NCBI RefSeq assembly: GCF_000974445.1
Contig: NZ_BBOJ01000014.1
Span: forward strand, 372,001 to 436,000
DNA from: Lentzea aerocolonigenes
Lineage (GTDB): Bacteria > Actinomycetota > Actinomycetes > Mycobacteriales > Pseudonocardiaceae
Reading direction: 5' to 3'
Length of the DNA stretch: 64,000 nt
Below the pieces are notes generated by a model. It searched no databases and was not told the origin of the DNA. It saw nothing but the letters and a program-made list of their open reading frames with translations. Shown here one piece after another: positions 21,759 through 35,748 of this stretch (its first letter is position 1; each line of letters starts with the position of its first letter). A program made the translations under genes and the position numbers.

Positions 21759-24700
21759 GTGTTCAACCGCCGCCCTGCGGCGAGGCAGTCATGCCTGCGC
21801 GCGCCCAGAAACGCAGTAGCGGCGCTTCTCGCCGTGACCATGGCGGCCACCGCCGTGGTCGTCACCGCGAGCGCGCCGCAAGCGCCGCCCGTGGCAGTTC
21901 CGATCACCGAGGCCCCCGACACCGGCAGCGCGCTGGTCGCCGCCCGAGCTCAGGGCACCGAGGTCGAGGCGATCAGCATGCGGACATCGACGCGTGAGGT
22001 GTTCGCTCAGCCGAACGGACAGCTCAAGGCCCTCCTTTCCGCTGTTCCGCAACGGATTCAGCGCGACGGCAAGTGGTTGCCGATCGAGACCGCGCTCGAG
22101 CCGGGCAGCGACGGCATCACGCCCAAGGCCACCGAGACCGGCCTCACCTTCTCCCGCGGCGGCACCGAAGAGCCGCTCGTGCGGCTGCGCAAGGACGGCA
22201 AGTCGTTCGCGCTCACTTGGCCGGGCACCCTGCCCGCGCCGGCGCTCGACGGTCCGAACGCGACCTACACCGAGGTCCTGCCCGGCGTCGACCTGCGGAT
22301 GATCGCGCGGAACGACGGGTACCAGCAGCTGATCATCGTGAAGAACCGTGAGGCGGCCCGGCACGTCGAGCGCGTCCGGCTCGGCGTGAAGACCGACGGG
22401 CTGGAGCTGAAGCCCGCCGAGAACGGCGCGTTCACCATGGTCGACGCCGCGGGCGCCAAGGTGTTCGAGGTGCCCACCTCGCTGATGTGGGACTCGAAGA
22501 AGCAGGAGAACCCGGACGCGCCGCGCACCGACCAGCAGCCGGTCGGGGTGGAGATCGCGGCCGACGCCCTCACACTGGTGCCCCACCAGGGAATGCTCGC
22601 CGACAGCGCGACCGTCTACCCGGTCTACATCGACCCGGCACCGCACGTCGGGGTGAACGACGGCTGGACGACCGTCTACGACGACGGCACCAACGCGATG
22701 CGCGAGGGCAAGCACTGGAACGGCTACGACACCGAGGCCGAGAAGCCGGAGTACTGGTGGATCGGCGTCAGCCCCACCGCGCGGTCCGGCCGTGCCTACG
22801 GGTGGAACCTGAAGACCAGGACGTACTTCCAGTACAACACCAGCTTCCTCGGCAGCAAGGACATCTCCTCCGCCCGGCTCGACGTCGAGGTCGTGCACTC
22901 GCCCACGTGCAACGTGGAGCACAACCACCGCCTGTACCAGTCCCGGTGGGACGTCGACTGGAACACGAACTGGAACAACCAGCCCGCCGACTGGGGTGTG
23001 ATCAGCGAGATCTCGGTGCCGTCGGTGTACAGCAACTGTTCCGGGCACAAGGCGCTCTCCTTCACCAGCCCCAACTTCCCGGCCCAGATCGACAAGACCG
23101 GCAACTCGACGTTCTCGATCCGCGCGGCCGACGAGGGCAACCAGGACTACTGGCGGAAGTTCGATCCCGGCAAGACGAAGCTGGTCATCTACTACAACGG
23201 CACGCCGAACACGCCGGAGGAGCCGTCGACGGACCTCAACCTCCAGGCGTGCGCCAACTGCGCAGGCATGCCCTGGGTCGGCGACTCCACCATCCAGCTG
23301 CGCGCGAAACTGTCCGATCCGGACGGTGACCAGGTCAACGGCATCTGGGACGTCTACGACGACGTCGTCCCCGGCGACCCGGCGAAGCAGAACAAGCGCG
23401 TGTTCACGTCCGGCCCGCACGGTTCCGGGACGACGGCGGCGAAGGACGTGCCGCTCTCCGGCGTCGCGGACGACCGCCTGATCACGTGGTTCGTGGCGGC
23501 GAGCGACGGTGACAAGAAGGGCGGGTACGTCATCGGTCCGAAGCAGTTCCGGATCGACCGCACCGCACCGGTGAACCAGCCGGACGTCAGCAGCCTCGCC
23601 TACCCCGACGACAACCGCTGGCACGGCGGCACCACCGTGCCCGGCGCGTTCACGTTCACCGCGAAGGACGCCGACGTCGACAGGTTCGACTACGGCTGGG
23701 ACGACGCCATGACCAACTCGGTCGTCGCGAACGGCCTCGGCGGCAAAGCCACCGTCACGCTGACGCCGCCGGGCGACGGCCCGCGCGACCTGTTCGTCCG
23801 GTCCAGGGACAAGGCGGGCAACCCCGGTCCGAAGCGCGTGCACCACATCTACGTCCGCGCGGGCAGCGGTGCGATCTCGCAGTACACGTTGGACGGCAAC
23901 GTCAACGACAGCGCGTACCTCGGTGACCGCCACGGCACCACGCACGGCAACGTGAGCTACGTGTCCGGCCCGCTGGGTTCCGCGCTGAACCTGGACGGCT
24001 CGGGAGGACACATCACCGCGCCCACCGCGGTGCGCACGGACGCGAGCTTCTCGGTGTCCGCCTGGGTGAAGGTGGACGCCGTCGACGGGAGCTGGGGGAC
24101 CGCGGTCTCCCAGGTGGGCAACGAGACGTGCGGGTTCTGCCTGCGCTACGAGGGCGGCTCCCGGCGTTGGGTGTTCTTGATGCCGCACAAGGACTCCATC
24201 ACGGACAACCAGGTGGTCTTCGTGCGGTCGACGGAGGAGCCCACGGCGGGAGCGTGGACCCACCTCACGGGTGTGTACGACGCCGGCAACTCCCAGTTGA
24301 AGCTGTACGTCAACGGCGTGTTGCAGGGCACCTCACCGGGGAGCCCCACACCGTGGAACGCGGCGAGCGAACTGCGCATCGGTCAGTCGAAGGCCGGCAG
24401 CGTCAGCGACACCTGGTGGCGTGGCGGGATCGACGAGGTCCGCGTCTACGACCGCCCGCTCACCGACGCCGAGGTGCGCGGTGAGGTCCGGCGCGACAAC
24501 GTCCAGGCGGGCCACTGGCGCTTCGAGGAGGACCTGGCCACCGTCGCGCGCAACTCGGTGACCAATGGCGAGTCCGCGATGTTGTCCGGCGGTGTCTCGT
24601 TCTTCGAGCAGCGCCCGCAGCCGAAGAACCACGCACTGCGCTTCGACGGCACCGGCCAGGTGCGCACCACGGGGCCCGTTGTCCGCACGGACAAGAGCTT

Positions 24701-27700
24701 CAGCGTCTCCGGCTACGTCACGCTCGCGGACACGAACGGCACGATGACCGTGCTGTCCCAGGACGGCCCGGACTCCAGCGGGTTCGTGCTCCAGCAGAAG
24801 GACGGCCGCTGGCAGTTCGGCATGACCGAAGGCAACGGCAGCACCGCGTGGAACGTGCTCGCGCAGACCGCTCCGGGCACCGCCGTCGCGAACACTCCGA
24901 CGCACCTCGCGGCGGTCTTCGACTCGGTCACCAAGAAGGCGTCCCTGTACGTCAACGGCGGGACACCCGCGGAGAGCGCCGCGGCGACCAAGCCGTTCTG
25001 GGACTCCGCCGGCGCGTTCGTCATGGGCAACGACCAGCAGGGCGCCGCCCTGCGCGGTGACCTCGACGACGTCCGGGTGCACAGCAGGGCCCTGGCGGCG
25101 GACGAGGTCGCCGACATCGTCAAGCTCGACGCCGACCCGGTCCGCCAGTGGCGGCTCGACGGCGACGGCCTCGACACGTCCGGCTACAACGGCACCGCGT
25201 CGCTCGGCGACCAGGTCAGCTGGGGCAGCGGGCAGAGCGACAACTCCGACCCGAAGGACCTGAGCCTGCGCATCAGCGGTGTCCCCGGTGCGTCGCTCTA
25301 CGCCTCGCACGTCCTCGACACGTCCCGCAACTTCTCGGTCAGCGCCTGGGCGCGGCTCGACAAGCTCGTCGACGGTCAGTCGCCGACGGTGCTGTCGCAG
25401 GACGGCACCACGACGAGCGCGTTCCAGCTCCAGGCGACGCCGGACGGCCACTGGGCGTTCGCGATGTTCCAGACGGACCAGGCGGGAGGCGGCGCGCGGC
25501 ACGACCGGGCGATCGGCGCGGTGGCCCAGCTGGGCGTGTGGACCCACCTCGTGGGCACCTACGACGCGGCGCGTGACGTGATGACGTTGTACGTCAACGG
25601 TGTTGAGGCCGCCACGGTCGCACACCCCGACGCGTGGAACCACCCGACGGGCCAGTTCCGGATCGGCCGCGGGCTGTGGGACAGCAAGCAGGCCGACTAC
25701 TTCCCCGGTGCGATCGACGACGTCGAGGTGCACACCCGCGTGCTGTTCGCGGACGAGATCCGCGACAAGGCGGGCCGCGACCTCAGCCTCGTGCACAAGT
25801 GGCAGTTCGACGAGGGCACCGGCACGAACGCCGCGGACTCGGTCGGCGGCAAGGCGGGCACGCTGACCAACGCCGCGTTCGGCGTGGGCAGGCTCGGCAA
25901 CGCCGCGACGTTCAACGGCACCAACGCAGAGGTCTCGACCGGAGCCGTCGTGCGCACCGACCAGAACTTCACCGTGTCGGCGTGGGTCAAGATGCCCGAG
26001 CCCTGTTCCGCGAACTGCAAGCGGGTCGCGGTGAGCCAGGAAGGCGAGCACAACAGCAAGTTCCGCCTCGGGTTCCTCAAGGACCGCGACCACCTGGGCA
26101 ACTGGGTGTTCGAGATGACCGAGGACGACACCGACGCCACCAAGGTGACCGTGGCCGCGGTGTCTGCGGAGGTCGAGGACTTCACGGAGTGGGTGCACCT
26201 CGTCGGTGTGTACGACCGCGCCGCGAAGCAGGTGCTGCTGTACGTGCAGGGCAACCGCGTCGGCGACGGCGTGGTCAACTCGGTCTGGCAGGCGAACGGT
26301 GGCCTGCAGATCGGCCGCGCCAAGCTCCGCAGCGCCCCCGCCGAGCGCTGGGCGGGATCGATCGACGACGTCCGCTTCTACACCGGTGCCCTGGACAACG
26401 AGGGTGTGTTCGGCCTTTTCCGGTCGTACCCGGAGAAGGACCAGCCCGCAGCGACCCTGCCTGCGGCGGATGCCGGTCACTGGAAGCTGAACGACGGCAG
26501 CGGCACGACCGCGGTCGACAGCAGCGGCCGCAACAACACGATGACGTTCACCGGCACCGCCCCCACTTGGATCGGCGGGCGCAACGGCGCCGGTGTCTCG
26601 CTCGACGGTTCCACCGCCTCGGCCGAGACCGCGGGGCCGGTCATCGAGGACACGTCGCGCAGCTTCACCGCTTCCGCCTGGGTGTACGCCCAGGCCGGCG
26701 TCACCGGCCGCCGAGCCGTCCTGGCGCAGGACGGCACCAGGATGAGCGCGTTCTCGCTGTCCTACGACGGGGACTCCGGAAAGTGGGCGGTGGTCCAGTC
26801 GAGCAAGGACGAGGACGGGGCGCCCTCCGCGGTGCTGCTCTCGACGGAGCTCGCCAAAACCGACCGGTGGACGCACCTCGCGGTCGTCCACGATGCCGCC
26901 TCGAAGCAACTTCGCCTGTACGTCAACGGTGTGCTGTCCGCGGTCAACGTCGGCGTGGTCATGTGGAAGGCCGACGGACCGTTCGTCATCGGCCGCAACA
27001 AGGTGAACGGCGTGAAGGGCAGCTGGTTCTACCGCGGCATCGACGACGTGCGCGTCTTCGGCAGCGCGCTGACGGCGGGCGAGGTCGGCAAGGTCCACGA
27101 CGACGCGCCGTTCAACGACAGCGGACTCTGGAAGTTCGACGAGAACAGCGGCAATGACAGCACGTGGCGCAACAACACCGCCACGACCTCTGGCAACGCC
27201 TCGTACGTGCCCGGGGTGATCGGCAACGCCCTCAAGCTGGACGGCTCGGCGTCCGCTGCGGCGCAGTGGCACGGCGTCAACACCCGTGACAGCTTCACCG
27301 TCGAGGCGTGGGCGCGGCTGGAGCGCGACGACAAGACCTACACCGTGCTCGGCCAGAACGGCACCAGCGTCAGCACGTTCGTCCTGCAGTACCGGCCCGA
27401 GTCCAAGCGGTGGGTGTTCGCTGCGCCCGTCCAGGACTCCGACCAGGCGCCGCTGGTGAAGGCGCAGTCCGCGGAGCCGGCCGTCACGTGGCGCTGGACC
27501 CACCTCGCCGGCGTGTACGACCACGTTGCCGGGCAGCTGCGGCTCTACGTCGACGGCAAGCTCGCCGGAAGCGAGTCGGCCAGGCTCTGGCCGTCCGACG
27601 GCGGGATGACGATCGGCAAGGGCAGGTGGCAGGGCAAGGACGCCGACCTCTTCGCGGGTCTCGTCGACGAGGTGCGCGCGGTGGAAGGCGCGGTGACCGA

Positions 27701-28496
27701 GGCGAAGATCCTCGAACACGCCTCGCGCCCGTTGCCGGCCGCGGGCCAGCTCGGCCGCTACGTCAGCATCAACGGCACCGGCGAGCACTACACGGGCCTC
27801 ACCTCCGTGCCGCCGCTGCCCAACTACCGCTACGAGGGCGTGGCGGGACAGCCGGTGTCACCGACGGAGCCGAACACGCAACGGCTGTACTCGTGCAAGT
27901 CGGGCACCGACCACTTCAGCTCGACCGCGGCGGACTGCGAGGGCGCGACGCTGATCGGTGAGACCGGCGCGGTCTACTCCGTGAAGCCGGTCAACATCCC
28001 CACCGTCGAGCTCAACCTGTGCGTGGTCAACGCCGACCGGTTCACGTCCCTGGCGTCCGACTGCGAGGGCCAGACCAAGGTCAAGCGCCTGGGTTACCTG
28101 CGGGCTTACGCACCGCTGGTCCGCTACCTCACCACGCAGTTCCCCTGGGACCACTGGAGCACCACCCAGGGCGTGCTGCCCGGCTACAAGTCGGAGGGCG
28201 TCCTGGGCTACCTCGCCATGACCGGTGAGCCGGGCACCACGACGCTCTGGGTGTGCCGCGAGGGCACCGACACCTTCAGCTCGCTGGACTCCACCTGCGG
28301 CGGCAAGCAGAAGATCGGCAGCGCGGGCAACATCTGGACCACCGCACCGGCCGACAAGCCGTCCAAGGAGCTGTTCCGCTGCCGTGCCAACGGAGTCGGC
28401 AACAGGTTCGACTCGTTGAGCTGCGAAGGCCACCCGGTCGAGCAGTCGCTCGGCTTCGTACTCGTGAGCCCGCCGGCCACCGCCGCGACGTTCTGA
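21759..28496 (+). CDS. Giant secreted protein with six LamG domains
   Basis: The 2245-residue protein has a signal peptide (hydrophobic AVAALLAVTMAATAVVV, about 20-36). A beta-rich N-terminal region (about 65-250) is followed by a DNRLRE-like module (about 285-490) and an Ig-like region (about 500-690). Six LamG/concanavalin-type domains begin near residues 701, 915, 1125, 1343, 1570 and 1786. Each has the typical strands W-x-F/L-D-E/G, FSVSAWVK, WTHLVGVYD and LYVNG. The last 250 residues carry four Cys-pair repeats (such as LYSCKSGTDHFSS..DCEG). Such proteins bind carbohydrates or surface partners outside the cell. The GTG start follows GGGGGA. The RHS gene starts 20 nt after its stop, so the two are one operon. 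Confidence 0.87.
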   Translation: MFNRRPAARQSCLRAPRNAVAALLAVTMAATAVVVTASAPQAPPVAVPITEAPDTGSALVAARAQGTEVEAISMRTSTREVFAQPNGQLKALLSAVPQRIQRDGKWLPIETALEPGSDGITPKATETGLTFSRGGTEEPLVRLRKDGKSFALTWPGTLPAPALDGPNATYTEVLPGVDLRMIARNDGYQQLIIVKNREAARHVERVRLGVKTDGLELKPAENGAFTMVDAAGAKVFEVPTSLMWDSKKQENPDAPRTDQQPVGVEIAADALTLVPHQGMLADSATVYPVYIDPAPHVGVNDGWTTVYDDGTNAMREGKHWNGYDTEAEKPEYWWIGVSPTARSGRAYGWNLKTRTYFQYNTSFLGSKDISSARLDVEVVHSPTCNVEHNHRLYQSRWDVDWNTNWNNQPADWGVISEISVPSVYSNCSGHKALSFTSPNFPAQIDKTGNSTFSIRAADEGNQDYWRKFDPGKTKLVIYYNGTPNTPEEPSTDLNLQACANCAGMPWVGDSTIQLRAKLSDPDGDQVNGIWDVYDDVVPGDPAKQNKRVFTSGPHGSGTTAAKDVPLSGVADDRLITWFVAASDGDKKGGYVIGPKQFRIDRTAPVNQPDVSSLAYPDDNRWHGGTTVPGAFTFTAKDADVDRFDYGWDDAMTNSVVANGLGGKATVTLTPPGDGPRDLFVRSRDKAGNPGPKRVHHIYVRAGSGAISQYTLDGNVNDSAYLGDRHGTTHGNVSYVSGPLGSALNLDGSGGHITAPTAVRTDASFSVSAWVKVDAVDGSWGTAVSQVGNETCGFCLRYEGGSRRWVFLMPHKDSITDNQVVFVRSTEEPTAGAWTHLTGVYDAGNSQLKLYVNGVLQGTSPGSPTPWNAASELRIGQSKAGSVSDTWWRGGIDEVRVYDRPLTDAEVRGEVRRDNVQAGHWRFEEDLATVARNSVTNGESAMLSGGVSFFEQRPQPKNHALRFDGTGQVRTTGPVVRTDKSFSVSGYVTLADTNGTMTVLSQDGPDSSGFVLQQKDGRWQFGMTEGNGSTAWNVLAQTAPGTAVANTPTHLAAVFDSVTKKASLYVNGGTPAESAAATKPFWDSAGAFVMGNDQQGAALRGDLDDVRVHSRALAADEVADIVKLDADPVRQWRLDGDGLDTSGYNGTASLGDQVSWGSGQSDNSDPKDLSLRISGVPGASLYASHVLDTSRNFSVSAWARLDKLVDGQSPTVLSQDGTTTSAFQLQATPDGHWAFAMFQTDQAGGGARHDRAIGAVAQLGVWTHLVGTYDAARDVMTLYVNGVEAATVAHPDAWNHPTGQFRIGRGLWDSKQADYFPGAIDDVEVHTRVLFADEIRDKAGRDLSLVHKWQFDEGTGTNAADSVGGKAGTLTNAAFGVGRLGNAATFNGTNAEVSTGAVVRTDQNFTVSAWVKMPEPCSANCKRVAVSQEGEHNSKFRLGFLKDRDHLGNWVFEMTEDDTDATKVTVAAVSAEVEDFTEWVHLVGVYDRAAKQVLLYVQGNRVGDGVVNSVWQANGGLQIGRAKLRSAPAERWAGSIDDVRFYTGALDNEGVFGLFRSYPEKDQPAATLPAADAGHWKLNDGSGTTAVDSSGRNNTMTFTGTAPTWIGGRNGAGVSLDGSTASAETAGPVIEDTSRSFTASAWVYAQAGVTGRRAVLAQDGTRMSAFSLSYDGDSGKWAVVQSSKDEDGAPSAVLLSTELAKTDRWTHLAVVHDAASKQLRLYVNGVLSAVNVGVVMWKADGPFVIGRNKVNGVKGSWFYRGIDDVRVFGSALTAGEVGKVHDDAPFNDSGLWKFDENSGNDSTWRNNTATTSGNASYVPGVIGNALKLDGSASAAAQWHGVNTRDSFTVEAWARLERDDKTYTVLGQNGTSVSTFVLQYRPESKRWVFAAPVQDSDQAPLVKAQSAEPAVTWRWTHLAGVYDHVAGQLRLYVDGKLAGSESARLWPSDGGMTIGKGRWQGKDADLFAGLVDEVRAVEGAVTEAKILEHASRPLPAAGQLGRYVSINGTGEHYTGLTSVPPLPNYRYEGVAGQPVSPTEPNTQRLYSCKSGTDHFSSTAADCEGATLIGETGAVYSVKPVNIPTVELNLCVVNADRFTSLASDCEGQTKVKRLGYLRAYAPLVRYLTTQFPWDHWSTTQGVLPGYKSEGVLGYLAMTGEPGTTTLWVCREGTDTFSSLDSTCGGKQKIGSAGNIWTTAPADKPSKELFRCRANGVGNRFDSLSCEGHPVEQSLGFVLVSPPATAATF

Positions 28497-28516: not shown

Positions 28517-31500
28517 ATGAAACTGAAGCGCGCCCTCATGAGAGGGATGGCGGTCTGCCTGGCGCTGACCGCCGTCACCGCGACCGTCGAACAACAGGCG
28601 ATCGCCGCCCCCGGCCCGTCGGTCAACGCGCCGGACGTCCAGTCCGTGCCCGTCACCAACGGCTCCCTCGCGTCCCGCGGCCCCGACGAGGCAACGTCGC
28701 GAGCGCTGTCGGGCAACCAGCCGGCGGCGAGCAGCACACCGGGCGGTGGTTCCTTCGCCGCCACACCGTTCTCCGCATCGGCGTCGTGGGAGGTGTCGAA
28801 GCAGAGCGGTGACTTCAGCTGGTCGTACCCGCTTCGGGTGCCGCCGGCGCCGGGCGGCTTCGTCCCCTCACTGGGCCTGTCGTACCGATCGTCCGCTGTG
28901 GACGGTCTGACGTCGGCGACGAACAACCAGCCGTCGTGGATCGGCGACGGCTGGGACCTGTCGGCCGGCTACGTCGAACGCGCCTACGGTGCCTGTGCCA
29001 CCGACACCGAGGGCGGTACGACACCGCCCAAGACCGGCGATCTCTGCTGGCGCAGCGACAACGCCACGGCGTCGTTCGGCAGCAAGGGCGGCATGCTGAT
29101 CAAGGACGACCAGTCCGGTGCCTGGCGCATGAAGCAGGACGACCGATCCCGCATCGAGCGGCTGTCGACCGCTGGCAACGGCGATCGCTTCAACGAGTCG
29201 TGGAAGATCACGACGGTCGACGGCACGCAGTACTTCTTCGGCTCCCGGGTCGACTCGAAGTCGACCTGGACCGTGCCGGTGTTCGGTGACGACGCCGGGG
29301 AACCGTGCCACGAAAGCACTTTCGAGGCGTCCTCGTGCGACCGGGCGTGGCGCTGGAACCTCGACAAGGCCATCGACCCGCGCGGCAACGTGATCCTCTA
29401 CAACTACGACACCGAGACCAACAAGTACGGCAAGAACCTGACGGACACGGCCGTTGCGTACGTGCGTGCCGGCACGTTGAAGTCGATCGAGTACGGCCTG
29501 CGCGACGACGTGAACGCCCCGGCCGCGGGTCGTGTCGAGTTCGGCCTGGCCGACCGCTGCGTCAAGAGCAGTGAGTGCACCTTCGCCAAGAAGGAGAACT
29601 GGCCGGACGCCGCGGTGTCGGAGAACTGCGATGCCGCCACCTGCAAGGACAAGTACAGCCCGACGTTCTGGTCGACCAAGCGCCTGTCGACGATCACCAC
29701 GCAGGTGCGCAGCGGTGACGGCTACCAGAACGTCGACCGCTGGACGTTGCAGCACGAGTTCCCCAAGACCGATGACGCCTACCAGGCCGCCCTGTGGCTG
29801 AAGAGCATCCAGCACACCGGTCTCGTCGGCGGTGAGATCCCGCTGCCGGAGGTGACGTTCGAAGGCGGCAAGAAGCCGAACCGCGTCGACACGCCGACCG
29901 GAATCGGTCCGCTGAACCGCTACCGCGTCACCGGTGTGGTGTCCGAGGCCGGCGGCGTCACGCAGGTCAAGTACGCGGAGCCGGACTGCGTGCCGGGCAC
30001 CTCGATGCCCACCAACCCCGAGTCCAACACCCTTCGCTGCTACCCCGTGAAGTGGACGCCGGACAACGGTGTGGAGCGCGAGGACTACTTCCACAAGTAC
30101 GTCGTCGAGTCGGTCTCGACGTCCGACCGCGTCGCGGCGAGCGCCGAACAGCTCGTCCGCTACGAGTACCTGGACGGTGCCGCCTGGCGGTACGACACAT
30201 CGGAGTTCAGCAAGGACGACAAGAGGACTTGGAAGGAGTTCCGCGGCTACGGGCGGGTGCGCACCCGCATCGGCAGCGAGAACGACGCTGCCGGTCCGGT
30301 CACGATGACCGAGGAGCGCTTCTACCGCGGCATGCACGGCGACAGGTTGCCGAACAACGGCACCCGCTCCGTGAACGTCACCGACTCGGAGGGCGGCGGA
30401 CGCGAGGACTCGGACTGGCTGCAAGGAATCAAGTTCGAAAGCCAGGGACACGACGGCACCGGGGAGAGCGTTCTCGCCAAGACGATCTCGACGCCGACCT
30501 GGGCCGGTCCCACTTCGACCCGCGGTGCGTACAAGGCGTACTGGGTGGGCGCGGGATCTTCGACCAGCTACACCGCACTCCGCGCGGGAGGGTGGCGGAT
30601 CACGAAGGTCGAGAACACCTACGACGACCACGGCCAGATCGTCCGGACCAACGATCTCGGCGATCTCGGTGTGGCGACGGACGACCGGTGCACCAGGACG
30701 TCCTACGCGCAAAACGAGGCCAAATGGATGTGGTCCTACCCCTCGCAGAGCGAGACGGTCGGCGTCCACTGCGGAGCGGAGGCGTTGTTCCCCGACGACG
30801 CGCTCGTGGGTTCACGGGTCGCTTATGACGGGCGTCAACCCGGCGAGGCACCGATGTCCGGCATGGTCACCAAGCAGGAGGTGTTGTCGGCGCGGCCCGC
30901 TTCCGGGCCCGTTTTCGAGACGGTGTCGACGAGCAGCTTCGACGACTACGGACGGCCGCTTGCGGTCGCGGACGCGCTGGGCAACACGGCCCGTACCGCC
31001 TACACCCCGGCTTCAGGAGGCCCGCTGACCGGAACCACGGTCACCGACGCCGCAGGCCACGTCACCACGTCGACGTTCGAGCCTGCGTGGGGTCTGCTGA
31101 CCAAGTCCGTCGACGCGAACGGGAACACCACGGAGGCCACGTTCGACCCGATCGGTCGCTCGACGCAGGTCTGGCACCCGAACCGGCCCCGTGAGGAGTT
31201 CTCCGACCGTCCCAGCCAGACTTTCGCCTACGACGTTCAGCGCGATGCTCCTACCTCTGTGACCACCACCCAGGTGAACGCGAACGGCAACTACCTGGCT
31301 CAGACGACTGTCTACGACGGGCTGTACCGGGTCAGGCAGGTGCAGACCCCGACAGACGGTGGCCGCTTGGTGGCGGACACGAGGTACGACTCCCAGGGGC
31401 GTGTGGTCCGCTCCACGCAACCGTTCTTCAACGCAGGGGCGGTGGACAAGAACCTGCTGATGTTCTCCGAGTCCGACGTGCCGGGGCTGACGCGCAGTGA

Positions 31501-34500
31501 GTTCGACGCGTCGGGCAGGCCGAAGCACTCGATCTTCCAGGGCGGCGGCCAGGAGAAGTGGCGATCCACCATCGCCTACGGAGGAGACCGGACCGACGTC
31601 ACGCCGCCACAGGGAGGCACGCCGACGACGACCATCACGGACGCGCGCGGCCTCGTGACGGAACTCTGGCAGTACAAGGGATCTGCCGCGGCCGGTGACC
31701 ACGAGACCTCCAGGTACGGGTACACCCGAGCGGGTCTGCTCGCCTCCACGACCGACGCGATGGGCAACAGCTGGCGCTGGAGCTACGACCTGCGAGGGCG
31801 CCGCACGAAGTCCGAGGACGTCGACAAGGGAACGACCACGACGACCTACGACGCAGCAAGCCGCGTCGCGTCGGTCACGGACGCCCGTGGAACGACCCTG
31901 ACTTACGCGTATGACGCTTTGGGGCGCAACACGACGGTGAAGTCCGGCGCGACCGTGTTGCAGGAGTCCAAGTACGACACCGCCCAGTACGGCAAGGGGC
32001 TTCTGGAAAGCGCCACGCGGTACGTGAACGGCCAGGCGTACGTCAACCGGGTCAAGGCTTACACGTCGTTGAACAAGCCGATGTCCACAGAGACCGAGAT
32101 CCCGGCCGCCGAAGGTCCGTTGAAGGGCATCTACAAGACCAGCTACGTCTACAAGCCCAACGGCAATGTGGCGAGTGAGACGCTCGGTGCGGTTGCCGCG
32201 GCCGGTATCGCTTCCGAAACCGTCCTGCACGAGTACGACAACTTCGGTCGCCAGGTGAAGACGTCCGGTGGTCTCAGCGGTGCCGGCACGGACACGTTGG
32301 TCAACAGCACCCTCTACACCCGTCTGGGCGAGATGTACCGGCTCGAGTTGGGCACGGTGGGCAAGCGGACGTGGTTGTCGTACTACTACGACGACAACAC
32401 ACGCAGAATGAACCGCTACATTGTGGACGCTGAGGTGGCGTCCCCGATGCAGGCCGACGTCAACTACTCCTACGACGCCGTCGGCAACATCCTGTCGAGC
32501 ACCGACGCTCCCGCGGGCCAGGCGGCGGACAGGCAGTGCTTCCGTTACGACCACCTGCGTCGGCTGACCACCGCGTGGACGCCTTCAGGCACTTGCACGG
32601 CGGATCCGGCGGTGGGGGCCCTCGCGGGACCGGCGCCGTACTGGCACTCGTACGCCTACGACGCGTCAGGAAACAGGACGGCGGAGGTTCAGCATGCGGC
32701 GTCGGGCGATCTGACGCGCACCTACACCTATCCTGCCGCCGGGTCACCGCGGCCGCACGCGGTCGGGTCGGTGACCACGACAGGTCCCGGCGTGAACCAG
32801 GTCGACCAGTTCACGTACGACGAGACCGGGAACACTGCGACTCGCAAGGTGGCTGGAGGGAACCAGACGCTCGACTGGGACGCCGAAGGCCGTGTGGTCA
32901 AGGTGACCGATGGTACGAACGTCTCAGAATTCCTCTACGACGCTGACGGAACGCGGTTGATCCGGCGTGCCTCCGATGCGACCACGTTGTACGTCGGTGC
33001 TCAGGAGGTCCGCCTCGCGAAGGGGGCGACGACCCCGACCGTGACGCGGTACTACACGCACAACGGCAAGACCGTCGCGATGCGCGAGGGAAAGACCAAG
33101 CTCACGTGGCTCGCCGGCGACTACCAGGGCACGACCCAGCTCTCCGTGGACAAGGCGACGATGCAGGTGCAGCGCAAGAGGCAGCTGCCGTTCGGCGGCT
33201 CCCGTGGCGCTGCGTCGGCCATTCCAGGTGAACGAGGGTTCGTCGGCGGTACCAACGACGCCTCCACCGGGCTGGTGCACATCGGCGCCCGGCAGTACGA
33301 CGCGACGCTCGGCAAGTTCCTGTCCGCTGACCCGATCATGAGCGCCGGCGATCCGCAGCAGTGGAACGCGTACGCGTACGGCAACAACAGCCCGATCACC
33401 TTCAGCGACCCGACCGGCGAGCACTACTGCGACAGCCACGTCTGCCGCGGCGACCCCGGCTACGTCGACAGGTGCGCGAACTGCATCAAGGACAGTGAAC
33501 TGGGTGGTGGCGACAAGGCCACCTACAACAACGGCACTACGGCGATGACCGGGGTCCGGGGTGAGCAGTACATCAACGGCATCGTCTACCCGAAGCTGAA
33601 CAAGGCCCCGTCGGCTCACGCGGTGGCGAAGAAGATCGATGCCCAGTTGAAGAACTACCGGCGAGATCAACCGACCTACTACCCGCCGGAGGAAGATCTC
33701 GTCAACCGCATCCTCGCGATGTGCGACTCCGATCGCGAGTTCTGCGGTGACCTGTTCGACTGGGCGTACGGCGCCCAGTTGCGCGGCTACACCGAGAACG
33801 AGTCCGTGATGGGTGGCGGCAACAGCGGCGGGATCGACCGCGTTGAACTGGGCCAGCGCTGGGGTATCGGCAAGTACGCGACCAAGGCTTCGCCCGAGTC
33901 CTTCAAACCCGGTTTCAACGGGAAGCAGGACACCCGGAACCCGAAGGGCGTCACCTGCAACTGCTTCCCCGCCGGTACGTCCGTGTCGACGGAGAGCGGG
34001 GCGAAGCCGATCGAGCAGATCGAGGTCGGTGACCGCGTCTGGGCGCGAAACCTGATCACGGGCAAGTCCGAGCTGCGCACGGTGGTCGGCCTGTTCAACA
34101 AGCAGGCGGGCACTTTGCTGACCATCGTGGCGGGCGGTGTCCAGGTGCAGGTCACGCCGGAACATCCGTTCTGGGTTCCCGGCAAGGGATGGGTCAACGC
34201 GGGTCAGCTGCAGGCCGGTGACCGGCTGACGTCGTTGACCGGCCCTGACGTCGAGATCAGCTCCATCACCTCGAACACGGCGGGCACCACCGTCTACAAC
34301 TTCGAGGTCGAAGGACTCCACAACTACTACATCAGCGAGTCCCAGCTCCTCGTACACAACTGTGCTGCGAAGAAGAAGGGGAAGCAGCGGTGGGACGACG
34401 AGGATGAATATGACGGCTACAACACCCCAGGAGACAACCAGAGGCAGAACAGGCAGGCGGCCGACGCGATCAGGACGGGCGAGCGCAGCATCGGCCGAAC

Positions 34501-34600
34501 GCTGACCGACAAGGAGAAGCGGCGGGTTCACGACGAAATCACCGGACAGGGCCTGACCTACCACCAGATCGTCGAAACCGTTGAGACCCTGTTCGGATGA
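28517..34600 (+). CDS. Secreted RHS-repeat polymorphic toxin with Hint domain and variable C-terminal tail
   Basis: The 2027-residue protein has a signal peptide (1-32), an SpvB/TcdB-like beta-propeller part (about 90-650) and YD/RHS repeats from about 790 to 1590. The RHS core motif GKFLSADPI..NAYAYGNNSPITFSDPTG spans about 1600-1635, where the encapsulating shell usually ends. A Hint (intein-like) autoprotease domain spans about 1814-1950: it starts NCFPAGTSV, contains TPEHPFWV and ends LLVHNC. The last 77 residues (KKKGKQRW to VETLFG) are the predicted effector, with the motif RRVHDEITGQGLTYHQIV. The ATG at 28517 has GGGGAG upstream. The stop overlaps the next gene by 4 nt. This order is that of polymorphic toxins used against competitors. 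The toxin activity itself is not recognisable. Confidence 0.88.
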   Translation: MKLKRALMRGMAVCLALTAVTATVEQQAIAAPGPSVNAPDVQSVPVTNGSLASRGPDEATSRALSGNQPAASSTPGGGSFAATPFSASASWEVSKQSGDFSWSYPLRVPPAPGGFVPSLGLSYRSSAVDGLTSATNNQPSWIGDGWDLSAGYVERAYGACATDTEGGTTPPKTGDLCWRSDNATASFGSKGGMLIKDDQSGAWRMKQDDRSRIERLSTAGNGDRFNESWKITTVDGTQYFFGSRVDSKSTWTVPVFGDDAGEPCHESTFEASSCDRAWRWNLDKAIDPRGNVILYNYDTETNKYGKNLTDTAVAYVRAGTLKSIEYGLRDDVNAPAAGRVEFGLADRCVKSSECTFAKKENWPDAAVSENCDAATCKDKYSPTFWSTKRLSTITTQVRSGDGYQNVDRWTLQHEFPKTDDAYQAALWLKSIQHTGLVGGEIPLPEVTFEGGKKPNRVDTPTGIGPLNRYRVTGVVSEAGGVTQVKYAEPDCVPGTSMPTNPESNTLRCYPVKWTPDNGVEREDYFHKYVVESVSTSDRVAASAEQLVRYEYLDGAAWRYDTSEFSKDDKRTWKEFRGYGRVRTRIGSENDAAGPVTMTEERFYRGMHGDRLPNNGTRSVNVTDSEGGGREDSDWLQGIKFESQGHDGTGESVLAKTISTPTWAGPTSTRGAYKAYWVGAGSSTSYTALRAGGWRITKVENTYDDHGQIVRTNDLGDLGVATDDRCTRTSYAQNEAKWMWSYPSQSETVGVHCGAEALFPDDALVGSRVAYDGRQPGEAPMSGMVTKQEVLSARPASGPVFETVSTSSFDDYGRPLAVADALGNTARTAYTPASGGPLTGTTVTDAAGHVTTSTFEPAWGLLTKSVDANGNTTEATFDPIGRSTQVWHPNRPREEFSDRPSQTFAYDVQRDAPTSVTTTQVNANGNYLAQTTVYDGLYRVRQVQTPTDGGRLVADTRYDSQGRVVRSTQPFFNAGAVDKNLLMFSESDVPGLTRSEFDASGRPKHSIFQGGGQEKWRSTIAYGGDRTDVTPPQGGTPTTTITDARGLVTELWQYKGSAAAGDHETSRYGYTRAGLLASTTDAMGNSWRWSYDLRGRRTKSEDVDKGTTTTTYDAASRVASVTDARGTTLTYAYDALGRNTTVKSGATVLQESKYDTAQYGKGLLESATRYVNGQAYVNRVKAYTSLNKPMSTETEIPAAEGPLKGIYKTSYVYKPNGNVASETLGAVAAAGIASETVLHEYDNFGRQVKTSGGLSGAGTDTLVNSTLYTRLGEMYRLELGTVGKRTWLSYYYDDNTRRMNRYIVDAEVASPMQADVNYSYDAVGNILSSTDAPAGQAADRQCFRYDHLRRLTTAWTPSGTCTADPAVGALAGPAPYWHSYAYDASGNRTAEVQHAASGDLTRTYTYPAAGSPRPHAVGSVTTTGPGVNQVDQFTYDETGNTATRKVAGGNQTLDWDAEGRVVKVTDGTNVSEFLYDADGTRLIRRASDATTLYVGAQEVRLAKGATTPTVTRYYTHNGKTVAMREGKTKLTWLAGDYQGTTQLSVDKATMQVQRKRQLPFGGSRGAASAIPGERGFVGGTNDASTGLVHIGARQYDATLGKFLSADPIMSAGDPQQWNAYAYGNNSPITFSDPTGEHYCDSHVCRGDPGYVDRCANCIKDSELGGGDKATYNNGTTAMTGVRGEQYINGIVYPKLNKAPSAHAVAKKIDAQLKNYRRDQPTYYPPEEDLVNRILAMCDSDREFCGDLFDWAYGAQLRGYTENESVMGGGNSGGIDRVELGQRWGIGKYATKASPESFKPGFNGKQDTRNPKGVTCNCFPAGTSVSTESGAKPIEQIEVGDRVWARNLITGKSELRTVVGLFNKQAGTLLTIVAGGVQVQVTPEHPFWVPGKGWVNAGQLQAGDRLTSLTGPDVEISSITSNTAGTTVYNFEVEGLHNYYISESQLLVHNCAAKKKGKQRWDDEDEYDGYNTPGDNQRQNRQAADAIRTGERSIGRTLTDKEKRRVHDEITGQGLTYHQIVETVETLFG

Positions 34601-35133
34601 GTGAAGACCCGACGAAAGGCGCGCTGTCCGTGATCGAGGCAGCGCGCCGGTCCTTGGAGAAGCTGATCGGCGAGCGGTGGCACGCTCTCGGGCGTGCCGC
34701 CGACCTCGTCTGGCTTGAGTTCGGCCCGCGTCGCGATGTGGTCGACCACCGAGGTGAAACCCGCGAGGTGGGCGAGTACGCACTGCACGTGCAGTGCCCG
34801 TGGCGGGTGCTCGACGAGGACCAGCTCGTCACCGGCTCCGCCGACATCTACCGTCCGCGGCCGGGCTGGACCGGTGACGGTGACTTCGACTGGGGCGTGC
34901 AAGGCGCCACCAGGTTCGATGTTCGAGCCGGGAAGCTGAGAGCGTACCTGGCCGACGAGCCGGTCGTCGTGACGTCTGTCGAGGTCACTGCATGGGGTGA
35001 CCTGGTCATTTCGCTCTCACACGGCTTCCGGATCGACGTGTTGAGGACCGGTTCGGTGCGGGAGGAGGACTGGCGGTTCTTCCGGCCGTACCGCGATGAC
35101 GAACACGTGGTCGTGTTCGAGCCTCGCCGCTGA
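34597..35133 (+). CDS. Candidate immunity protein for the RHS toxin
   Basis: The 178-residue soluble protein has no signal peptide or TM helix. It mixes helices at the N-terminus with beta strands (GEYALHVQCPWRVL, VTGSADIYRP) and has many Trp and Asp/Glu residues. It starts inside the stop codon of the toxin gene (ATGA overlap), which is the usual place for a cognate immunity gene. I know this sequence type only as a hypothetical protein. It is the last gene of the module; the next gene belongs to the conserved backbone. Confidence 0.65.
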   Translation: MSEDPTKGALSVIEAARRSLEKLIGERWHALGRAADLVWLEFGPRRDVVDHRGETREVGEYALHVQCPWRVLDEDQLVTGSADIYRPRPGWTGDGDFDWGVQGATRFDVRAGKLRAYLADEPVVVTSVEVTAWGDLVISLSHGFRIDVLRTGSVREEDWRFFRPYRDDEHVVVFEPRR

Positions 35134-35223: not shown

Positions 35224-35748
35224 GTGACGAGTCCGTTCGCCAGCTCGAACCGGCCCGGTGTCCCGCCCCGCCTGCCCACCCCTCCGACGGGGTGGCCCAT
35301 CGGCTCGTACGCCACGTACGAGGAAGCGCAGCGTGCCGTCGACTTCCTCGCCGTCGAGGACTTCCCGGTGCAGGACGTCATGATCGTCGGCGTGGACCTG
35401 ATGCTCGTCGAACGCATCACCGGGAAGCTCACCTGGGGGCGCGTTCTGGCGACCGGTGCGGCCAGCGGTGCCTGGTTCGGGTTGTTCGTCGGTCTGCTGC
35501 TCACCCTTTTCAGCACCGAGCCCGGGGTCACGATCGGGCCCGTGCTGACCGGTCTGATCACCGGTGTGTTCTTCGGGCTGGTCTTCGCGGCGGTCGGGTA
35601 CGGGTCGGCTCGTGGCAAGCGGGACTTCCAGTCGGCCAGTCAGCTGGTGGCCGGCCGGTACGACGTGCTTTGTCACCCGAAGTCGGCCGAGAAGGGGCGT
35701 GACCTGCTCGCCAAGCTGGCGATGAGGCCCGTCAACCCCGGCAGCTGA
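35224..35748 (+). CDS. General-stress-type membrane protein (Rv1234-like)
   Basis: The 174-residue product has the GSP17M-like N-terminal domain (GSYATYEEAQRAVDFLAVED followed by FPVQDVMIVG) and two TM helices in the middle (ATGAASGAWFGLFVGLLLTL and VLTGLITGVFFGLVFAAVGY). The C-terminal tail is cytoplasmic and basic. GTG at 35224 is preferred because AGAGGTGG lies 5 nt before it; an upstream GTG at 35215 is part of that Shine-Dalgarno sequence. The same gene precedes lpqY in mycobacteria. Confidence 0.85.
   Translation: MTSPFASSNRPGVPPRLPTPPTGWPIGSYATYEEAQRAVDFLAVEDFPVQDVMIVGVDLMLVERITGKLTWGRVLATGAASGAWFGLFVGLLLTLFSTEPGVTIGPVLTGLITGVFFGLVFAAVGYGSARGKRDFQSASQLVAGRYDVLCHPKSAEKGRDLLAKLAMRPVNPGS

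Follow-up and report, generated by a model that had tools for sequence, protein, structure and literature searches.

Among polymorphic toxins, the RHS/Hint class described by Zhang et al. (2012; PMC3482391) combines RHS repeats and a PT-HINT domain with an exchangeable C-terminal domain behind them and an adjoining immunity gene, and the same study also describes immunity genes that stand without a toxin, in polyimmunity loci. The gene pair analysed below lies in a 64,000-nucleotide stretch of the 10.7 Mb genome of a soil actinobacterium of the genus Lentzea (contig NZ_BBOJ01000014.1, positions 372,001 to 436,000; hereafter the window) and displays the same features, namely RHS repeats and core, a Hint domain with an HN-C end, an exchangeable C-terminal domain, and a linked small gene. 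We consider it very likely that the pair encodes a secreted polymorphic toxin with its immunity gene—a toxin–immunity cassette candidate outside the named families, within a known kind of system—and it may represent an undescribed weapon-and-antidote pair acting between bacteria.

The toxin candidate, a protein of 2027 residues, is encoded at 28517..34600 on the forward strand and was recognised by RHS, PT-HINT and intein-motif matches. As judged by eye, its N-terminus carries a hydrophobic stretch with AIAA at its end. Pfam RHS_repeat (E = 7e-20) and the RHS core model TIGR03696 (residues 1558–1634, E = 7e-18) bear out the repeats and core motif that an initial annotation, made from the letters alone, had read in this protein. 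The Hint domain that it had placed between NCFPAG and VHNC was likewise recovered: PT-HINT (PF07591, E = 1.9e-17) covers residues 1823–1948 (33983..34360, forward strand), starting near CNCFPAG and ending in VHN, with auto-cleavage presumed before Cys1949, and the intein C-terminal motif TIGR01443 matches residues 1926–1949 with their VHN-C end (22.7 bits against a cut-off of 15.6). A short tail does follow the Hint domain, its length being 79 residues rather than the 77 first given, if the cut follows Asn1948. This effector tail (residues 1949–2027; 34361..34597, forward strand) comprises a low-confidence linker and then a predicted three-helix bundle. Also as first described, the next gene begins inside the toxin's stop codon, with the ATG of a 178-residue candidate immunity protein (34597..35133, forward strand) overlapping the TGA as ATGA at 34597. 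Tail and 178-residue gene each occur once in this genome, besides weak tail matches at E = 0.24 (L007) and 0.60 (L008).

Neither the tail nor its partner matched a Pfam or NCBIfam family above the curated cut-off, and PADLOC, which has no such cut-off, returned no match for either at E up to 1. Against PDB sequences, a search with the tail alone was empty up to E = 10, and tail profiles gave no convincing match (best, the sigma factor FliA, E = 0.18). The tail is accordingly unassigned with respect to these collections, as had been claimed. Scattered weak Pfam and NCBIfam rows for tails were discarded (PseudoU_synth_1, E = 0.12 and 0.072; Med12-LCEWAV, 0.0067; BssS, 0.0096; lip_kinase_YegS, 0.15). 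No description of the tail was found in the open-licence papers searched, and among the rows of Table 2 of PMC3482391 that were covered none clearly fits; nearest there, by description only, are Ntox16 (alpha-helical, with R and [DNE]xxH), Tox-HTH and Tox-LatrotoxinCTD. The predicted bundle spans tail residues 25–78, approximately 54 residues. The tail is very small, all-helical and near-neutral, and contains a single invariant histidine (His2005, H57 of the tail) and a conserved polar NNxxQN segment. PT7 is a short DNase; it was not among the tail's fold matches listed, and the PT7–PIM7 pair (PDB 8owu) gave no sequence match to the tail or immunity profiles among the matches listed (60 of 66 for the immunity profile).

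The tail recurs with its partner well beyond the window. A single contig scan, keyed to a short peptide pattern surrounding the conserved histidine and hence blind to relatives lacking that pattern, identified 12 tail loci, 11 of them actinobacterial (Lentzea, Streptomyces, Actinopolymorpha, Actinophytocola and Actinokineospora) and one from Paraburkholderia, and in all 12 the tail is followed directly by a gene homologous to that of the 178-residue protein. Over 30 distinct tail loci, an immunity homologue lies at most 46 bases from the end of the tail match in 25; these loci span two phyla and a range of carriers. The immunity profile was built from 13 of the loci, and 12 of the 25 linked loci are independent of it. 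The set of 30 leaves out L014–L018 (E = 0.0015–0.0056, carriers not RHS), L054 (sigma factor), L059 and L060 (E = 0.16 and 0.61), the weak own-genome matches L007 and L008, and repeats of one place (L006; L011–L013, equal to L050, L049 and L051; L057, L064, L073 and L130–L132; L076, equal to L041; H4, on the same plasmid). The initial expectation, a tail that follows different cores and always stands beside this immunity type, thus holds for the different carriers and for these 25 loci, and fails in its "always": the profile search of the 30 loci found no clear immunity homologue in L053, L056, L067 and L074, and L010, not counted among the 25, has a weak match (E = 0.31) within two tandemly encoded proteins of another kind. 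The L010 pair was rejected as remote immunity homologues (profile E = 0.0016, but a probability of 16%), and the same assignment was not supported for the neighbours in L067 and in Agrobacterium L056. At L010 (1684–2655, reverse complement), L067 (1647–2162) and L056 (4162–4671), tail relatives are followed by other, only possibly related types of immunity candidate; PMC13392607 sets a precedent, one toxin there being countered by two different immunity proteins. In L050 (6195–7224), two immunity homologues stand in tandem behind one toxin.

The carriers are diverse. RHS and Hint parts were both matched by search in L041 (the same as L112), L046 and L010; a Hint domain, the only part looked at, precedes the tail in L042, L043, L047 and L048; L050 and L051 are RHS carriers without a convincing Hint; and L044 is a Hint–tail cassette on a 313-residue frame. 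At L045 (2–6189), a short displaced cassette of Hint end, tail and immunity gene lies behind two other frames, the first large, RHS-like and ending differently, the second transposase-like. The Caballeronia tail sits on a protein of 227 residues whose gene overlaps the next one in the same ATGA fashion; the small non-RHS carriers were judged as such by eye. A plasmid of Agrobacterium larrymoorei carries the tail behind a Tox-PAAR-like domain; the genes there run VgrG, DUF2169, PAAR-like, hypothetical protein, and this hypothetical protein cannot be recognised as a member of the window's immunity family. Ten of 200 genomes from the family of the Paraburkholderia genome carry the tail, one of them on a 2997-residue frame that is CdiA-like by eye, and in the window's own family tail matches at E = 0.01 occurred in 10 of 249 genomes, five of which we judged convincing. 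Otherwise the tail is rare in the samples searched, contrary to an expectation that it would be very common: three of 396 phylum genomes (its own, one truncated, one sigma factor) and one of 398 Pseudomonadota genomes (the search centre itself), with 14–15 candidates scored per genome in both samples.

Across 19 pairs, tail and immunity pairwise distances correlate closely (r = 0.92, P = 2e-4), which shows co-transmission, not proof of contact; the immunity proteins are net negative in 16 of these pairs. This comparison left out L045, L049, L052, L069, L070 and L072 (broken, partial or near-identical) and used, for proteobacterial rows, at most the C-terminal 175 residues of the open frame. 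Between the window and Lentzea aerocolonigenes, nonsynonymous (dN) and synonymous (dS) divergence was 0.087 and 0.55 for RHS-Hint, 0.23 and 1.29 for the tail, on 72 codons only, and 0.19 and 0.80 for the immunity candidate (178 codons), suggesting that the RHS-Hint core evolves more slowly than tail and partner, which nonetheless look constrained. Recurrence in two phyla together with this constraint argues that the pairing of the tail with the next gene is more than chance. Frame-broken tails followed by open immunity frames were seen in L049 (5847–6162; Actinophytocola) and L052 (5318–6100; Paraburkholderia), which is what one would expect were the tail a burden and immunity an advantage.

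The chromosomal site was compared in the window and 23 further Lentzea genomes (match threshold E = 1e-8; for L106 and L125 the contig ends leave short stretches), and the gene downstream of the pair (35224–35748) is present in all 24. Five genomes have LamG-RHS at the site. The window and G844 bear the window's type of tail; G848, G204 and G845 bear three unlike tails, none with a Pfam family above cut-off, on RHS cores 51%, 73% and 72% identical to the window core over the aligned part. Four others (G847, G140, G849 and G105) lack RHS there and have instead an orphan immunity homologue, 57–60% identical, at the very site that holds the toxin in the window; these orphan genes are stop-free over the aligned 483 bases, with dN/dS of 0.33–0.73 in six pairs. 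The remaining 15 have neither, LamG-like matches being found in L111, L119 and L125. Tails have thus been exchanged at this locus, which shows the pattern of a polymorphic toxin locus. Elsewhere, a Hint-containing query matched 22 of the 24 genomes at E = 1e-10, with many different tails; of two nuclease-looking tails tried besides a GIY-YIG-like one, one matched EndoU and the other HNH above cut-off. The site forms a natural series—this toxin, other tails, orphan immunity only, or neither—and could serve to test toxin-tail exchange and the persistence of orphan immunity genes.

These comparisons bear on whether the tail is a toxin at all. A structural or targeting end of the RHS protein would be short and without a named family, as the tail is, and in most actinobacterial loci the tail does stand behind Hint or RHS sequence. 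The tail, however, is also borne by small non-RHS, Tox-PAAR-like and CdiA-like proteins, and other tails take its place on related cores at the window's site; most loci, moreover, have a partner gene that overlaps it or lies right next to it. We therefore regard a structural end, which the initial annotation had named as fatal to its proposal, as very improbable. There is also evidence against the immunity assignment. Searching 249 family genomes with the 178-residue protein gave matches in 19 at E = 0.01 and in 13 at E = 1e-5 or better; the tail adjoins in four of the 13 (G000, G066, G078 and G167) and is absent beside the match in nine. In the window's family the gene is therefore commoner without the toxin than with it, and a downstream gene found mostly without the toxin, which had been put forward as counting decisively against the pair, is formally what this one survey returned. 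Together with the four Lentzea genomes that keep the gene alone at the site, this would fit a neighbour with a role of its own, carried on by the orphan copies. That alternative appears improbable, because 25 of the 30 tail loci, spread over two phyla and several kinds of carrier, have a homologue immediately downstream; moreover, since PMC3482391 describes polyimmunity loci devoid of toxin genes, we do not take the toxin-less majority as a refutation. Orphan homologues with no recognised RHS or tail adjoining comprise L106, L108, L116 and L124, the four at the window toxin's site, as well as L019, L020, L023 and L024.

The immunity candidate approaches named families without joining one. Eight of 13 homologues gave weak matches to Pfam DUF6188 (best E = 0.0026), the window protein reaching 14.3 bits, below the gathering cut-off of 27.1; Imm1 (PF14430) was matched by one of the 13 (E = 0.002), whereas the window protein and 11 other homologues were not listed at E up to 1. 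Matches to other families (dCO2ase_PEP1, E = 0.02, and others) were weak and scattered, and those of the immunity profile to WD40 chains among PDB sequences (best E = 0.0057) were spread over the repeats; both were dismissed.

For a secreted toxin with its antidote, the following path can be proposed. The RHS protein would be exported through a putative N-terminal signal, and LamG and RHS repeats may display or shield the effector, by analogy with known RHS proteins. A Hint-driven cut after VHN1948, as the motifs suggest, would free the 79-residue tail, which might then enter a competitor cell and kill it; in the producer and its kin, the 178-residue protein, of alpha+beta type, would bind and block the bundle, as its linkage implies. 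The weakest step is the activity of the tail. Because this class often consists of nucleases, and given the single invariant histidine with the NNxxQN segment, we tentatively favour a small nuclease using His2005 together with that segment, at somewhat below even chances; near-neutral charge and tiny size leave room for a protein-binding inhibitor. Such a non-enzymatic toxin, with a bundle that binds and disables some essential protein or complex and an immunity protein that competes for the surface, would suit a very small, all-helical domain with one invariant histidine, and the nearest folds include binding-type bundles (protein A domains and affibodies), though these are generic. The conserved NNxxQN and histidine suggest a site beyond a mere surface, and we think this alternative rather unlikely. 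It is conceivable, in a tentative way, that the tail is a three-helix-bundle toxin of approximately 54 residues and of an undescribed catalytic or binding type, marked by the histidine and NNxxQN, that moves, together with the immunity gene as one unit, between Actinomycetota and Pseudomonadota on Hint-RHS, PAAR (type VI secretion system) and CdiA-like carriers. Should the tail prove toxic, it would represent a toxin and immunity family not described so far, spread across several delivery systems and two phyla, and it is small enough for synthesis and structure solution.

Upstream of the toxin gene, a multi-LamG protein of 2245 residues (21759..28496, forward strand; Laminin_G_3, E = 5e-148) stops 20 bp short of the RHS gene, and the toxin and immunity genes are probably co-transcribed with it. 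A term search of the part of PMC13018210 covered found no passage on a LamG–RHS link. LamG matches also lie upstream of RHS at L112, L113, L118 and L122, and at two further loci of the window's own genome (L128 and L129). Within Lentzea, RHS-Hint genes thus probably have a LamG protein as partner; LamG-type sequence precedes RHS in the window and at all six further loci covered that far upstream, which suggests a two-gene LamG-RHS delivery unit.
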